Source of the DNA: a bacterium BMS3Abin02
GTDB lineage: Bacteria > Actinomycetota > Acidimicrobiia > Spongiisociales > UBA4744
DNA: 64,000 bases
NCBI GenBank assembly: GCA_002897675.1
Contig: BDSU01000034.1
Span: forward strand, 1 to 64,000
Reading direction: 5' to 3'
A program made the translations under genes and the position numbers. The notes beneath the pieces are model-generated. The model was given only the letters and a program-made list of their open reading frames with translations. It did no database searches and had not been told where the DNA came from. Of the stretch, positions 14,061 through 19,634 are shown piece by piece. How positions within the stretch are numbered: position 1 is the first letter of the stretch; each line of letters opens with the position of its first letter.

Positions 14061-14606
14061 GCCCGCCCCACAGCGGGCATACGCTCCCTTCCGCGCAGAG
14101 CGTCAGGGGAGCCGATCCGGATGCAGTGATCGTGTGGATCCCGTGGATGCCGGCAACACACCAGTCGTGCCCCGGCATCTCTACCACGCGTTACCGGGTC
14201 CGCAGATCGAGGGTGGCGACGTTCGTGACATCTGCGTGATGCGTGCCGAGGCAATTGGCATCCGTGATGGTCGGGATACCTCGACTCGTCGGTTCGAGCT
14301 TGTTGATCGGTACGACCCCGAGGTGGGCTTCGCGGTGATGGAGCGGCTCGCCGGCCGGCACGCGATAATCATGAACTCGCCGCCAGAGGCGATGTCCCCC
14401 TCGGCGTGCATCCCGTGGAGCGTGCGGTCTCGCCGCTGCGTTTCCTCCAAGAGGTGCGTGTGCGGGGATTCGATCTCCGTGAGAACACTCGTCGATAGGT
14501 AGGGACTTTCGGCCCTTTTGTTCGGGACCTTTGCCGGTCCTGCCTGCTCGTGCAGCAAGATTACGATGCAGAGTATGCAGAGTAATGCACGGAAGGCAGG
14601 TCTCGA
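14061..14606. other. 546-bp region without a confident gene
   Basis: A 6-bp GC hairpin (14061-14078) directly after the kinase stop may act as a weak terminator. A plus-strand frame at 14134-14502 (122 residues, several Cys) and overlapping minus-strand frames exist, but none resembles a known family or has a good ribosome site. The right end holds the regulator promoter region with a tandem 9-bp repeat (14566-14583). The middle part could be a decayed gene. Confidence 0.4.
14566..14589. promoter_or_regulatory. Tandem direct repeat before the PocR regulator (candidate operator)
   Basis: Two exact, adjacent copies of ATGCAGAGT (14566-14574 and 14575-14583) are followed by a partial third copy, AATGCA. 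They end 17 nt before the TTG start of the HTH-PocR regulator. MerR/excisionase-type HTH proteins often bind short direct repeats, so autoregulation is possible. This is inference from position and repetition. Confidence 0.4.
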
Positions 14607-15368
14607 TTGGCCGGCATGCTGACGTCCAAGGAGCTACAGGAGTTGCTCCAGGTGGATCGGTCGACGATCTACCGCATGGCCGAAGCCGGGTCGCTCCCTG
14701 CGGTCAAGGTGGGACGTCAGTGGCGGTTTCCCGAGGCGGCCATCGAACGCTGGCTCATATCTGGACACCAAGGTACGGGCAGACCGCGTGCCGTCGAGCC
14801 GGATGACGGAGCCGCCTTGGCACCGAGCTCGTGTATCCAGCCGATCATCGACCTGCTTGCCGACATTCTGGGCGTCATGCTCGTTGTCACCGACATGCAC
14901 GGCGTCCCCATCACCGACGTGTCCAATCCCTGCGGGTTGTTCGACGCTGTCGCGCAGATTCCCGGCGGAACCGCCGAATGCATCGCGGGATGGCAGGATC
15001 TCGCCGGATCCGCCGACCTCGAACCTCGCTTCACCGGAAGTCATCTCGGCCTCATGTGCGCACGCTCGTTCATTCGGGTGGGCGCCGAGTTGAAGGCGAT
15101 GGTGATCGCCGGAGGCATTGCTCCAGGCGTATGGCCGCCAAGTGATGCAGAGCTGGACTCGATGGCGCAGGGTTTTGGCGCCGATTCGGCGGATCTCGCC
15201 GCTCACGTCGGCGAGGTGTACGACCTCGACGCGAATGCCCGGCAGAGAGTGCTGGAGGCACTGCCGCGTGTCGCAGCAATGATTTCCGAGATCTCGGCGG
15301 AGTTCCGGTCGTTGCGAGGCAAGCTCGAAGCGATCGCAGTCCTCACCGAGCGATCAACAAGGAGTTGA
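14607..15368 (+). CDS. HTH regulator with PocR-type sensor domain
   Basis: This 253-residue regulator has an excisionase/MerR-like winged HTH at residues 1-52 (LTSKELQELLQVDRSTIYR, with WRFPEAAIERW), then a linker and a PocR-family ligand-binding domain (about 75-230; LLADILGVMLVVTDMHGVPIT is cut here to its key VVTDMHG). PocR domains bind small metabolites in other bacteria. The stop lies 4 nt before the SQR-like gene, so it is first in the sulfur operon and probably its local sensor. The start is TTG at 14607 with GGAAGG upstream; an ATG at 14616 is the alternative. Confidence 0.78.
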   Translation: MAGMLTSKELQELLQVDRSTIYRMAEAGSLPAVKVGRQWRFPEAAIERWLISGHQGTGRPRAVEPDDGAALAPSSCIQPIIDLLADILGVMLVVTDMHGVPITDVSNPCGLFDAVAQIPGGTAECIAGWQDLAGSADLEPRFTGSHLGLMCARSFIRVGAELKAMVIAGGIAPGVWPPSDAELDSMAQGFGADSADLAAHVGEVYDLDANARQRVLEALPRVAAMISEISAEFRSLRGKLEAIAVLTERSTRS

Positions 15369-15372
15369 AGGA

Positions 15373-16608
15373 ATGAGGAAGCTACTGGTCTTGGGCGCCG
15401 GCACTGCCGGCACCATGGTGGTGAACAAGATGAGCCACCATCTCGATCCCGACGAATGGCAGATCACGATCGTGGATCAAGAGGAGACGCACTACTACCA
15501 GCCGGGGTTCCTGTTCATTCCGTTCGGGATGTACGGGCGTAATGACGTCATCAAGGCCAAGCGGGACTACATCCCGATTGGTATCGAGATGATCGTCTCC
15601 GAGATCGATCTGATCGAAGCGGACAAGAACCGGGTGAAGCTCGTCAAGGGAGACCGCCGGCTGGACTACGACTATCTGGTCATCGCCACCGGCACGCATC
15701 CGAGGCTGGACCAGACGCCGGGGCTCCTCGACGAAGAGAAACTTCCGGAGAACGTGCACACGTTCTACACACTCGAAGGAGCCGTGAACCTCGCCAAGTA
15801 CCTACGATCCTGGGAAGGCGGGCGGTTGGTGCTCAACATCATGGAATACCCGTTCAAGTGCCCGGTTGCCCCGCTGGAGTTCATCTTTCTCGCCGACTGG
15901 TGGTTCACCGAGCAGGGCCTTCGCGACAAGGTGGACTTGACGTTCGTAACCCCGCTCCCGGGGGCGTTCACGAAGCCGATCGCCTCTCGGGCGCTCGGTG
16001 GGATGCTGGAGGAGAAGAAGATCACGCTGGTCCCAGACTTCATGCCCGAGCGGGTCGATCCGGACCGCAACACCCTCGTCGCCTTCGACGAGGAGGAAGT
16101 CGAGTATGACCTGCTCGTCACCGTGCCGGTCAGCATGGGTGCGGATGTGATCGGGCGGTCGGGACTGGGAGACGAACTGAACCACGTTCCGGTGGACAAG
16201 GAAACGTTCGTTTCCAAGAAGCACGACAACATTTTCGCTCTGGGCGACGCCGCGGCGCTGCCGACGTCCAAGGCGGGATCGGTTGCGCATTTCGCCGTCG
16301 ATGTCTGGACCGAGAACTTCCTTCGGTACATCGACGGCCTGCCCATGCTGGAGAAGTTCGACGGTCACGCGAACTGCTTCATCGAGTCGGGCTTCGGCAA
16401 GGGACTCCTGATCGACTTCAACTACGACACGGAGCCGCTTCCGGGCAAGTACCCCCTTCCCGGCGTAGGCCCGTTCTCGTTGCTCCAGGAATCCGAGATG
16501 AACCATTGGGGCAAGATGATGTTCCGGTGGATGTACTGGAACGTGCTGCTCAAGGGCAAGGAGATGCCGGTTACGTCCTACATGACGATGGCGGGGAAGT
16601 GGAGCTGA
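15373..16608 (+). CDS. Sulfide:quinone oxidoreductase-like flavoprotein
   Basis: This 411-residue FAD protein of the pyridine-nucleotide-disulfide family is of the SQR/FCC type. It oxidises sulfide and passes electrons to quinone in known members. FAD motifs are GAGTAG (8-13), ATGTHP (105-110) and FALGDAAALPT (288-298). C163 (FKCPVAP) and C335 (NCF) match the two redox cysteines expected to carry polysulfide; the third Cys of type I enzymes is absent. The hydrophobic C-terminus (about 360-400) fits monotopic membrane attachment. AAGGAG lies 8 nt before the ATG. The downstream genes DUF1641, TusE-like and DsrE2-like support sulfide or persulfide chemistry. Direct activity is unproven. Confidence 0.85.
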   Translation: MRKLLVLGAGTAGTMVVNKMSHHLDPDEWQITIVDQEETHYYQPGFLFIPFGMYGRNDVIKAKRDYIPIGIEMIVSEIDLIEADKNRVKLVKGDRRLDYDYLVIATGTHPRLDQTPGLLDEEKLPENVHTFYTLEGAVNLAKYLRSWEGGRLVLNIMEYPFKCPVAPLEFIFLADWWFTEQGLRDKVDLTFVTPLPGAFTKPIASRALGGMLEEKKITLVPDFMPERVDPDRNTLVAFDEEEVEYDLLVTVPVSMGADVIGRSGLGDELNHVPVDKETFVSKKHDNIFALGDAAALPTSKAGSVAHFAVDVWTENFLRYIDGLPMLEKFDGHANCFIESGFGKGLLIDFNYDTEPLPGKYPLPGVGPFSLLQESEMNHWGKMMFRWMYWNVLLKGKEMPVTSYMTMAGKWS

Positions 16609-16609
16609 G

Positions 16610-17299
16610 ATGAGCACGACGACCACCACCGACGTCGCCGAGCTGAGCCGCAAGATCGACCAACTCGCCGCTCAGGTGCAGTTCCTCACCGAGGAGGCAC
16701 TCATCGCGAGGGAGCGTCGCCAGGAGCGAGATGAGCTCATGGCCGACATCACGCCGCTTGCCGGTGAGGCGTACCAGTACGCGGTGCGTCAGCTCGAGCA
16801 GGTAGATCGGTACGTCACACTCGACGACATGACGCACATGGTCAAGAAACTGTTGCGAAACGTCAAGAATCTCGAAGAGCTCCTCGACAGGATGGAGAGC
16901 ATCAAGGAGTTCATCGAGGACGCGACTCCGTTGACGCAGAGTGGAGTCATCAGCCTGATGGACGCGTTGCAGGATCTCGAGCACCGCGGTTACTTCGCGT
17001 TCATCCGAAGCGGTGGACGGGTGTTGGACAACATCGTCACCAGTTTCACGGAGGAAGACGTGCGCGCATTGGGCGACAACATCGTGCTGATCCTTCAGAC
17101 GGTGCGTGAGATGACTCAGCCCGAAGTGATGACGATGCTGCAGGACACGGCGAGGACCGTCCGTGAAGAGGAAGTTCCGGAAGACATCACGTGGCGGGCG
17201 TTGGCTCGGCAGATGCGTGATCCGGCGACAAAGAAGGGTCTGGCGAAGTTGATGCTGACCCTTCGAACGATTTCCGGCGAACAGCCGGGTGAGCACTGA
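16610..17299 (+). CDS. DUF1641 family protein
   Basis: This 229-residue, mostly helical protein contains DUF1641 in its second half (about residues 80-190, including the NLEELLDRMESIKEFIED and FIRSGGRVLDN areas). DUF1641 genes commonly sit next to SQR-like or formate-dehydrogenase genes but have no known activity. It starts 1 nt after the SQR stop and runs 11 nt past the earliest possible start of the next gene. The N-terminus has a coiled-coil-like stretch (8-40). It may be an assembly or membrane-association partner of the flavoprotein (inference). Confidence 0.82.
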   Translation: MSTTTTTDVAELSRKIDQLAAQVQFLTEEALIARERRQERDELMADITPLAGEAYQYAVRQLEQVDRYVTLDDMTHMVKKLLRNVKNLEELLDRMESIKEFIEDATPLTQSGVISLMDALQDLEHRGYFAFIRSGGRVLDNIVTSFTEEDVRALGDNIVLILQTVREMTQPEVMTMLQDTARTVREEEVPEDITWRALARQMRDPATKKGLAKLMLTLRTISGEQPGEH

Positions 17300-17312
17300 C
17301 AAAGGAGAAGCC

Positions 17313-17630
17313 ATGGCAACAGAAGTGATTGCCGGTCATGAGATCAGCGTCGACGACGAAGGCTTCATGACCGACCCGAGCGAGTGGAGCGAAGAGCTCG
17401 CCGAAGCACTCGCCAAGGAGATCCACATCGACGAGCTGACCGAAGTTCACTGGAAGGTGATCCGGTTCCTGCGAGCGGACCATGCAGAGGCAGGGGAGAC
17501 GGCGACGATCCGGCGAGTTTCGATGCAGACCGGTTTGACGACGAAGCAGCTGTATCAGCTCTTCCCGAAAAAGCCTGCCAAGAAGATGGCGTACATTTCC
17601 GGTCTTCCAAAGCCGACCGGTTGCGTGTGA
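17313..17630 (+). CDS. TusE/DsrC-family sulfur carrier
   Basis: This 105-residue member of the DsrC/TusE family ends in the invariant GLPKPTGCV arm. Penultimate C104 is the persulfide-carrying cysteine. The second cysteine of true DsrC, 11 residues earlier, is replaced (A93), so by that criterion it is TusE-like: it can carry a persulfide but cannot form the intramolecular trisulfide of DsrC. AAAGGAG stands 5 nt before the ATG at 17313. A location between an SQR-like flavoprotein and a DsrE2-like protein suggests sulfur relay rather than tRNA thiolation alone; no tusBCD is nearby. Confidence 0.88.
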   Translation: MATEVIAGHEISVDDEGFMTDPSEWSEELAEALAKEIHIDELTEVHWKVIRFLRADHAEAGETATIRRVSMQTGLTTKQLYQLFPKKPAKKMAYISGLPKPTGCV

Positions 17631-17643
17631 AGGGAGAGCGCCG

Positions 17644-18123
17644 ATGCCGAAGTTTGATGATGAGGCGGATCGAAAGATCAGCATCATCCTGAGTAAGGGG
17701 AGCCTGGACTGGGCGACCGCAGCAATGGTGATCGCCAACGCGGCGGTCTCCGAAGGAACCGAGCTGCACATCTTCTTCACCTTTTACGGCATGGATGCCG
17801 TGCTGAAGAAGAAGATGGATCGTCTCAAGGTCACACCCCTCGCGAATCCATCGATGGGAATGCCGAATGCCGTTGCCGCCCTGCCGGGAGTAACGGCGAT
17901 GGCGACGGCGATGATGAAGAAGATGATGAAGAAGCAGAACGTTCCGGAGCATCGCGACTTCATTCAGATGATCGCCGATGCGGGCGGCCACCTGCACGTG
18001 TGCCGGATGACGTTCGACATGTTCGGATTCAAGGAGGAGGACCTCTACGAAGAGGTGGAAGACGTGCTCAATGCAACCGATTTTCTCGAGCTTGCAGACG
18101 GCGGCCAGATCATCTTCATCTGA
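17644..18123 (+). CDS. DsrE2-like sulfur-transfer protein
   Basis: This 159-residue protein of the DsrE/DsrF fold resembles DsrE2 (peroxiredoxin-family-like) proteins. Features are ISIILSKGSLDWATAAM at the start, FFTFYGMDA, a Met/Lys-rich loop (MMKKMMKKQN, 90-99) and HVCRMTFDMFGF, whose C120 aligns with the conserved cysteine of the family. In sulfur oxidisers DsrE2 exchanges persulfide sulfur with TusA and DsrC-type carriers. It lies 13 nt after the TusE-like gene and is the last gene before a strong hairpin. Confidence 0.82.
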   Translation: MPKFDDEADRKISIILSKGSLDWATAAMVIANAAVSEGTELHIFFTFYGMDAVLKKKMDRLKVTPLANPSMGMPNAVAALPGVTAMATAMMKKMMKKQNVPEHRDFIQMIADAGGHLHVCRMTFDMFGFKEEDLYEEVEDVLNATDFLELADGGQIIFI

Positions 18124-18140: not shown

Positions 18141-18164
18141 GGAGGGGCCTCAGGTGAGGCCCCT
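18141..18164 (+). terminator. Terminator-like hairpin after the sulfur operon
   Basis: GGAGGGGCCTC is followed by its complement GAGGCCCCTCC with only a 4-nt loop region, an 11-12 bp GC-rich stem starting 18 nt after the DsrE2 stop. Only a short T run follows. Confidence 0.65.
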
Positions 18165-18245
18165 CCTTCGCGCGCCGGCCCCCTCCCCCCGGTTCTTGCG
18201 TGAGCTGGTTGCCCATGCCACGGGCGGCCTCGCGCAAGAAGGGTT

Positions 18246-18382: not shown

Positions 18383-18868
18383 CTAGGAGCGGGGGCCGTC
18401 CTCGTGTTCGGTGGGTGGGACCAGGATCACCGGAACATGGGTCTGTTCCATGACCTCGGCGGAGACGGAGCGCCACGCCCCGTCGCTGAACAACCTGCGG
18501 GTTACTCCGAGGAGGACGAGGTCGGCACCGATACTGTCTGCCGTACGGCAGATCACTTTGGCGGGATCCGATCCCTCCAGGAAGAGCTTTTCCGGGACCA
18601 TGCTTCTCGCGATCAGTGCAGCCACGACGGGGGCGGCGAGTCGCTCGCCACGCTCCTCCACATAGCGGGCGGTTCGTGCCTGTTCACTCTCGGCGCCGTG
18701 CGGAAACTCGGTGAGCGGATGCCATAGCTCGAGCTCCAGGGTGTCCAGGAACTCCTGGGGAGCAGGGACGACGGTGAGTACGGAGACGTGCCCCGCTGTG
18801 CCCGCGAGACGCAGAGTCAGGTCCGCGACGGGACCCGGAGGAAGGACACCCGTGGTGGCTATCAACAC
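18383..18868 (-). CDS. Universal stress protein family
   Basis: About 161 residues of the UspA fold. It begins VLIATTGV and ends with the nucleotide-loop-like VLLGVTRR...GSVS region (GAWRSVSAEVMEQ) and the PVILVPP strand. The glycine-rich ATP loop (GxxGx9GS) is poorly kept, so it may not bind ATP. AGAGGT stands 7 nt before the GTG at 18868; a second GTG at 18874 is also possible. It is convergent with the sulfur operon and divergent from the flavin reductase. Confidence 0.75.
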   Translation of the reverse strand: MLIATTGVLPPGPVADLTLRLAGTAGHVSVLTVVPAPQEFLDTLELELWHPLTEFPHGAESEQARTARYVEERGERLAAPVVAALIARSMVPEKLFLEGSDPAKVICRTADSIGADLVLLGVTRRLFSDGAWRSVSAEVMEQTHVPVILVPPTEHEDGPRS

Positions 18869-19124
18869 GTGCACACCTCTAGCGTAAACGAGTTTTCGAT
18901 CGAAGATTCTGCTGGAAGTCCGCTGGGCGATACATGGCATGTATCTGAACGGCCGAGCATCGCCGATCGCAGCATTCTCCGACTCCTCGAGTTGATGGCA
19001 ACGGCCGTCACGCTCGCCCCGCGGTCTCGCAGCGATCTCGGGCTGCGATAGGAGATGCAAGGCACAACGCACCGGTCCCGGCATCCTTCGACTCGTAGGC
19101 GCTCCTGTTGGGTACAGTGCGCGC

Positions 19125-19634
19125 ATGTCCAAACTGAGCCCCGAACTGATCAACCAGGTGACGTGGATGATTCCCAACGCGCTGGTCCTCATCGGAGCAC
19201 GCTCCGGCGACGAGTGGAATGCCATGACGGCTTCGTGGATTACTCAGGTGTCCATGGAGCCGGTCTCGATCGCCGTATCCATCGACAAGAAGGCACTGAC
19301 ACACCGACTCGTCGGTGAAAGCGGGGCCTTCTCGGTGAATCTGTGGTCGCCGGACGACACTCGCGTTTTCGTGAAATTCTCGAAGCCGGCCACGAAGGAT
19401 GGTATGCGACTCAACGACCGGCCCTTCCGAGAAGGTGCGACCGGTGTGCCCGTCTTCGAAGCGTCTGTCGCGTGGATCGAGGCGGCTGTGGTCGACTCCG
19501 TCGATGTTGGCACCCACACGCTGTTCATCGGCGAAGTCGTCGCTGCCGGCAGAGACGCGAGACACCAGGGGCGAGCAGCATCCATGTCCGACACACGCAT
19601 GAAGTATGGAGGCGTGCGGCGGGGAGGGCATTGA
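19125..19634 (+). CDS. Flavin reductase-like FMN-binding protein
   Basis: This 169-residue protein has the FMN-binding split-barrel fold of the flavin reductase (DIM6/NTAB) family. Such enzymes reduce FMN or FAD with NAD(P)H for two-component monooxygenases, or act as FMN proteins. Recognisable are the N-terminal VTWMIPNALVLIG with the AMTASWITQVS strand, and the FSVNLWS segment. It ends in a basic tail. No monooxygenase is adjacent, so the partner is unknown. An SDR follows 84 nt later on the same strand. Confidence 0.8.
   Translation: MSKLSPELINQVTWMIPNALVLIGARSGDEWNAMTASWITQVSMEPVSIAVSIDKKALTHRLVGESGAFSVNLWSPDDTRVFVKFSKPATKDGMRLNDRPFREGATGVPVFEASVAWIEAAVVDSVDVGTHTLFIGEVVAAGRDARHQGRAASMSDTRMKYGGVRRGGH

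Follow-up and report, generated by a model that had tools for sequence, protein, structure and literature searches.

A PocR-domain regulator and a predicted 9-bp direct-repeat operator at the head of a sulfide:quinone oxidoreductase operon in Acidimicrobiia and Chloroflexota

The stretch of DNA considered here, referred to as the window, comprises 64,000 nucleotides from the bacterium BMS3Abin02 of the class Acidimicrobiia (Actinomycetota; GenBank assembly GCA_002897675.1, contig BDSU01000034.1, positions 1 to 64,000 of the forward strand). Positions 14616-18123 hold five co-directional, almost contiguous genes, and the subject of this work is the first of them, a regulator with a PocR domain, together with the direct repeats that lie before it. 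The regulator gene (14616..15368, +) is followed by genes for a sulfide:quinone oxidoreductase (SQR; 15373..16608, +), a DUF1641-like helical protein (16610..17299, +), a TusE-type sulfur carrier (17313..17630, +), and a DsrE2-like sulfurtransferase (17644..18123, +). The regulator probably starts at ATG 14616 rather than at TTG 14607, since the conserved alignment begins there. The gap between the regulator and SQR is 7 base pairs (bp) when taken from the alignment ends, about 1 bp separates the SQR stop from the start of the DUF1641-like gene, and the DUF1641-like/TusE and TusE/DsrE2-like gaps are 13 bp each, with the TusE start set at ATG 17313, which is preceded by AGGAG. The reading frames, domain matches, and short gaps bear out what an earlier, sequence-only reading of this DNA had claimed, namely that the five genes are tightly spaced and co-directional. 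The genome of the window measures 2.5 Mb, is 95% complete, and encodes one PocR protein.

Directly before the regulator start, between a DosR-like box and the start codon, lies the direct repeat ATGCANNNN with a 9-bp period. The repeats occupy positions 14566..14590 (+) and read ATGCAGAGT ATGCAGAGTA ATGCAC with a period of 9-10 bp. Relatives have the same pattern, in which the letters that separate the TGCA cores vary. In the 38 linked loci, the count of TGCA is threefold that in dinucleotide shuffles (155 vs 52), pairs of TGCA at exactly 9 bp number 57 vs 0.5 in the shuffles, and at least one such pair is present in 30 loci. In 509 kb of fetched loci, 64 of the 74 TGCAN5TGCA sites fall in the 200 bp upstream of the regulator, which corresponds to a 460-fold enrichment. 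None of eight SQR operons that lack the regulator has the repeats (Fisher p 5e-5, to be read only as a guide since related loci are not independent). The exact three-repeat pattern has a single occurrence in the whole genome of the window, at this position, and the repeats are common to Actinomycetota and Chloroflexota loci. Because they track with the regulator and not with SQR, they are likely its binding site and are referred to here as a predicted operator. BldC multimers assemble head to tail on contiguous direct repeats of 9 bp, and do so through a domain of the same kind (PMC5859096). The 9-bp period seen here matches that of BldC, which among solved structures comes nearest to the DNA-binding domain.

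The linkage of the regulator with SQR was followed in a sample of 247 genomes of the class, of which 27 have a homologue of full or nearly full length (E <1e-30). For 26 of these, SQR lies 5 to 249 bp downstream on the same strand; for the 27th (G067, locus L081), the contig end falls within an SQR gene that starts directly after the regulator. A scan of named genomes gave 17 loci, which belong to Acidimicrobiia, other Actinomycetota, and Chloroflexota (Anaerolineae, Ardenticatenia, Caldilineae, and Thermoflexales), with SQR next to the regulator in 14 and the full gene order in most; a few of these loci may duplicate genomes of the class sample. Loss of the link between the regulator and the operon had been named beforehand as one of two results that would overturn the sequence-only reading, and the opposite was observed, with all 27 full-length class regulators placed directly upstream of SQR. 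The same order of five genes is seen again in Anaerolineae, Ardenticatenia, and Caldilineae; for Chloroflexota, co-occurrence was assessed through the named-genome scan, which samples close relatives only. The three homologues of the Actinomycetota family f62 each stand first in the same operon. Pairwise distances of the regulator and of SQR are strongly correlated (Mantel r 0.86), and none of 999 permutations gave a value as high.

The regulator contains a BldC-like HTH_17 domain (residues 1-47; PF12728, E 3e-17, 63 bits vs a cut-off of 27), a disordered linker (~51-63), a PocR domain (72-227; PF10114, E 5e-16, 59.3 bits vs a curated cut-off of 23.9, covering profile positions 6-161 of 162), and a C-terminal helix (206-249). 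Its only solved sequence matches are the BldC structures 6AMA and 6AMK, which are weak (E 0.24-0.34, phmmer), and a solved structure of a PocR domain was sought by sequence and not found. In the AlphaFold2 model (mean predicted local distance difference test score of 89), the helix-turn-helix part, a flexible linker at ~51-63, the PocR domain, and the long C-terminal helix are clear. A structure search indicated that the sensor part of the model resembles IclR, CodY, DosS, and MglB-type folds with Z values of ~9 to 11. These matches, the GAF-like ones (IclR, CodY, and DosS) included, represent a common arrangement that says little about the ligand.

Taken together, the data suggest an autoregulated, self-contained sulfide-capture operon in which a BldC-like regulator with a PocR sensor would act on its own 9-bp repeats and control the five-gene transcript in answer to a sulfur or redox signal. 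The probability of this reading is put at roughly 0.6. From the computed gene order, linkage, repeats, conserved cysteines, and fold, we infer how DNA binding, the sign of control, the ligand, and the flow of sulfur may fit together. The regulator would bind head to tail on the direct repeats before its own start codon, and binding there would control the whole transcript. A reactive sulfur or redox signal might then alter the oligomer of the regulator on DNA. Judging by position, the simplest arrangement would be a repressor that is released by the signal, and activation is also conceivable. In Acidimicrobiia, the DosR-like hypoxia box could give a second input. SQR, partnered by the DUF1641-like protein, would oxidise sulfide and hand the sulfane sulfur on via DsrE2 and TusE, probably to a sink in thiolation or in a carrier and not to Dsr or Sox.

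Several observations weigh against the autoregulated operon. In eight of the 38 linked loci there is no TGCA pair at exactly 9 bp. SQR of this kind is present in 68 of the 247 class genomes, and about 40 of these have no detected regulator. The cysteines conserved in the sensor domain occur in PocR domains of other Actinomycetota as well, and the homologues at L146, L149, and L148 have no clear sulfur neighbour, the last of these lying beside SCO1 and oxidase genes. The ~40 genomes with SQR and no regulator indicate that the regulator is not needed for the pathway; it is an addition to a wider SQR pathway, which can dispense with it. The many SQR operons without it also fit a regulator that is only a passenger, co-inherited with the gene block and acting elsewhere. 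Since the repeats follow the regulator and not SQR, and the genome holds no second exact three-repeat copy, such a passenger role is considered very improbable.

The cysteines bear on the question of what the PocR domain of the proposed operon switch perceives. Cys122 is conserved in 39/39 sequences, Cys148 in 37/39, and Cys106 in 32/39. Cys73 was considered as a fourth mark and rejected (16/39), and the triad was likewise rejected as a sulfur-specific mark, given that other PocR domains carry it. As the triad is shared in this way, the cysteines may have a more general function, with a cofactor or in redox chemistry. The DosR-like box GGGACTTTCGGCCC at 14502..14515 (+) is a predicted second control input, with a perfect core in the window and conserved in Acidimicrobiia. 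With at most two mismatches to the published consensus (PMC2275270), such boxes are found in 22 of 28 Acidimicrobiia upstream regions vs 1.35 expected, almost all on the same strand and ~95 to 137 bp before the regulator start. The genome of the window encodes a response regulator that is 80% identical to one near the operon at L043. The box is absent in Chloroflexota, where some upstream regions (L045, L046, and L147) have FNR/CRP-like palindromes TGACATTTGTCA near the operator, as noted by eye. This suggests a lineage-specific low-oxygen input that is layered onto a common local switch, and the box may mark a low-oxygen regulon in Acidimicrobiia. The operon could be controlled by the regulator while its PocR domain responds to oxygen, to the redox state, or to a cofactor such as a metal or Fe-S site on the three cysteines, an alternative that we regard as unlikely. 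It draws on the conservation of Cys106, Cys122, and Cys148 in common with other PocR domains, on the low-oxygen control suggested by the box and the palindromes, and on a fold like that of GAF domains, DosS included. However, a separate box already seems to supply the oxygen input, and the regulator stands beside sulfide-oxidising and sulfur-reducing genes alike, with sulfur as the shared factor.

Further homologues of the regulator occur in other gene neighbourhoods. Two Anaerolineales-type loci (L056 and L058) and three loci of the Actinomycetota family f91 (L158-L160) have a PhsA-like molybdenum oxidoreductase with Fe-S and membrane subunits beside the homologue, which suggests a second target set in sulfur respiration. 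The best NCBIfam match of these reductases is the thiosulfate reductase PhsA, at a score below the cut-off. TGCA repeats are also present at several of the PhsA-linked copies. In one Chloroflexota genome, further copies lie beside Sulf_transp, rhodanese, and multiheme cytochrome genes, and a paralogue (L152:546-8649) stands first in a run of genes for DsrE, for a lipoyl protein of GcvH-like type, and for a NiFe hydrogenase that includes a DsrK-like subunit. Upstream of 9763 (-) at L148, possible TAGCAAACG-type repeats lie before another paralogue; a different repeat core there would suggest a changed specificity. What the neighbours share is sulfur redox chemistry, running in both directions, and this speaks for sulfur or a linked redox signal rather than an organic substrate. 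An organic signal has its own grounds: when PocR was defined, it was predicted to sense simple hydrocarbon derivatives (Anantharaman and Aravind 2005, cited in PMC1592074), sensing of a small organic compound has been proposed for the PocR protein of propanediol use, and a lactate or glycolate oxidase-like gene comes after the homologue at L057. The genes for sulfide oxidation would then belong to a wider response to organic sulfur or carbon. The conserved operon has no gene for an organic substrate, and the genes linked to the regulator are those for SQR, DsrE2, PhsA-like proteins, and sulfur transport, so that an organic ligand appears improbable.

The sequence-only reading had proposed PocR as a sulfur or redox ligand sensor. 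Regulation of sulfur genes is made very likely by the dedicated operator and the sulfur-linked homologues, but the cysteines of PocR are not confined to this group, and confidence that PocR reads sulfur species is moderate. A broader proposal falls somewhat short of even odds. It would place the BldC-like and PocR combination in a new class of one-component sulfur sensors in Actinomycetota and Chloroflexota, in which the triad would read persulfide or polysulfide and the protein, by binding cooperatively to TGCA direct repeats, would control genes of sulfide oxidation as well as genes of thiosulfate or polysulfide reduction.

The enzymes of the operon are consistent with a sulfur relay. SQR, a member of the type III family (NF049943, 621 bits vs a cut-off of 525, with a Pyr_redox_2 match), is of the cysteine form, and Cys163 and Cys335 are invariant in 45/45 sequences. 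Cys335 lies in HANC, at the HxxU position of the selenoprotein subtype (PMC13188914); the selenoprotein form was rejected here and in relatives, all 45 sequences having cysteine. The earlier assignment of the third gene to DUF1641 holds only in part. The protein is conserved at the same position in nearly every relative, but its PF07849 score (19.1 bits) is below the cut-off of 21, and its function as a probable SQR partner is suggested by position. In Sulfobacillus thermotolerans, SQR and DUF1641 genes have adjacent locus tags and are both upregulated on sulfide ore (PMC7409299). The TusE-like carrier (DsrC PF04358, E 2e-33; TIGR03342, 86 bits vs 53.5) has its penultimate Cys105 conserved in 41/41 sequences. 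DsrC proper was considered and rejected, as there is a single conserved cysteine column and no second one in the C-terminal arm. The DsrE2-like protein matches DrsE_2 (PF13686, E 9e-35, 120 bits vs 25), stays below the curated cut-off of the equivalog NF047629 (117.5 vs 210 bits), and has Cys120 conserved in 39/39. The thiols of SQR, TusE, and DsrE2 form the sulfur-bearing chain expected from established knowledge of these families. These invariant cysteines support the relay that had been proposed, and sulfur would be expected to flow along the thiols of SQR, DsrE2, and TusE.

That no dsrAB, sox, or hdr genes are in view had also been claimed, and in part this holds for the whole genome. In the 95% complete genome, SoxB was not found, nor was a DsrAB pair genome-wide; one assimilatory-type sulfite/nitrite reductase (NIR_SIR) is present as a single chain of 586 amino acids beside a siroheme-synthase-like gene. 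For hdr, eight CCG-domain matches, which point to putative Hdr-type proteins, are found at four places elsewhere in the genome, and an Hdr-type route may exist. With neither SoxB nor a DsrAB pair found, the probable destination of the carried sulfur is thiolation, a carrier, or an unknown oxidation step. A literature search gave no paper on DsrE2, TusE, SQR, and Chloroflexi together.

Past the last stop codon, at 18141..18166 (+), a hairpin with a perfect 11-bp stem and a 4-base loop (z -2.1 for the stretch) probably marks the end of the transcript. The strong hairpin that had been described at the operon end is thus present, but it has no clear T tract and was not called by the terminator scan. 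A scan for sigma-70 promoters found none. Genes for a universal stress protein (18383-18901, -) and a flavin reductase (19125-19631, +) lie just 3' of the operon. At L084-L091, operons of SQR, DUF1641, TusE, and DsrE2 occur without the regulator and without repeats.

In the literature searched, no paper linking PocR to sulfide was found and no earlier description of this regulator-operon system. What is new here is a conserved direct-repeat operator, as predicted, before the PocR regulator of an SQR operon, and their linkage in two phyla. The domain has so far been linked to small organic compounds, and a role in sulfur handling can now be directly tested. Predicted operator, regulator gene, and target operon together span ~3.6 kb, and a single construct could hold all three. 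A PocR-based sulfide sensor, if true, would widen the known uses of the domain, and the operon would serve as a marker of sulfide use without dsr or sox for environmental Acidimicrobiia and Chloroflexota. Such a sensor would also extend the BldC style of repeat binding to a ligand-controlled regulator.

Among known systems, the PocR protein of propanediol use has an AraC-type DNA-binding domain. It shares the PocR sensory domain with the present regulator and differs in its target genes and DNA-binding domain. Known sulfide sensors include SqrR, CstR, FisR, and MarR-type proteins, and none is PocR-based in the papers searched. SqrR is a small ArsR-family repressor. SqrR/BigR of Rhodobacter and relatives is likewise a local regulator of sqr that answers sulfane sulfur, as is proposed here, whereas it works through a two-cysteine polysulfide bridge (PMC9995734) and has no domain in common with the regulator described. 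Control of the DosR regulon is comparable at the level of sequence, in that GGGACTTTCGGCCC agrees with the DosR motif in its core. A further parallel is BldC, the MerR-like regulator of Streptomyces, which shares the HTH_17-type winged helix and the 9-bp direct-repeat operator (predicted here) and whose structures (6AMA and 6AMK) are the nearest solved ones. BldC is a stand-alone domain of 68 residues with a developmental role and AT-rich repeats, whereas the present regulator has a PocR sensor attached and repeats with a TGCA core.

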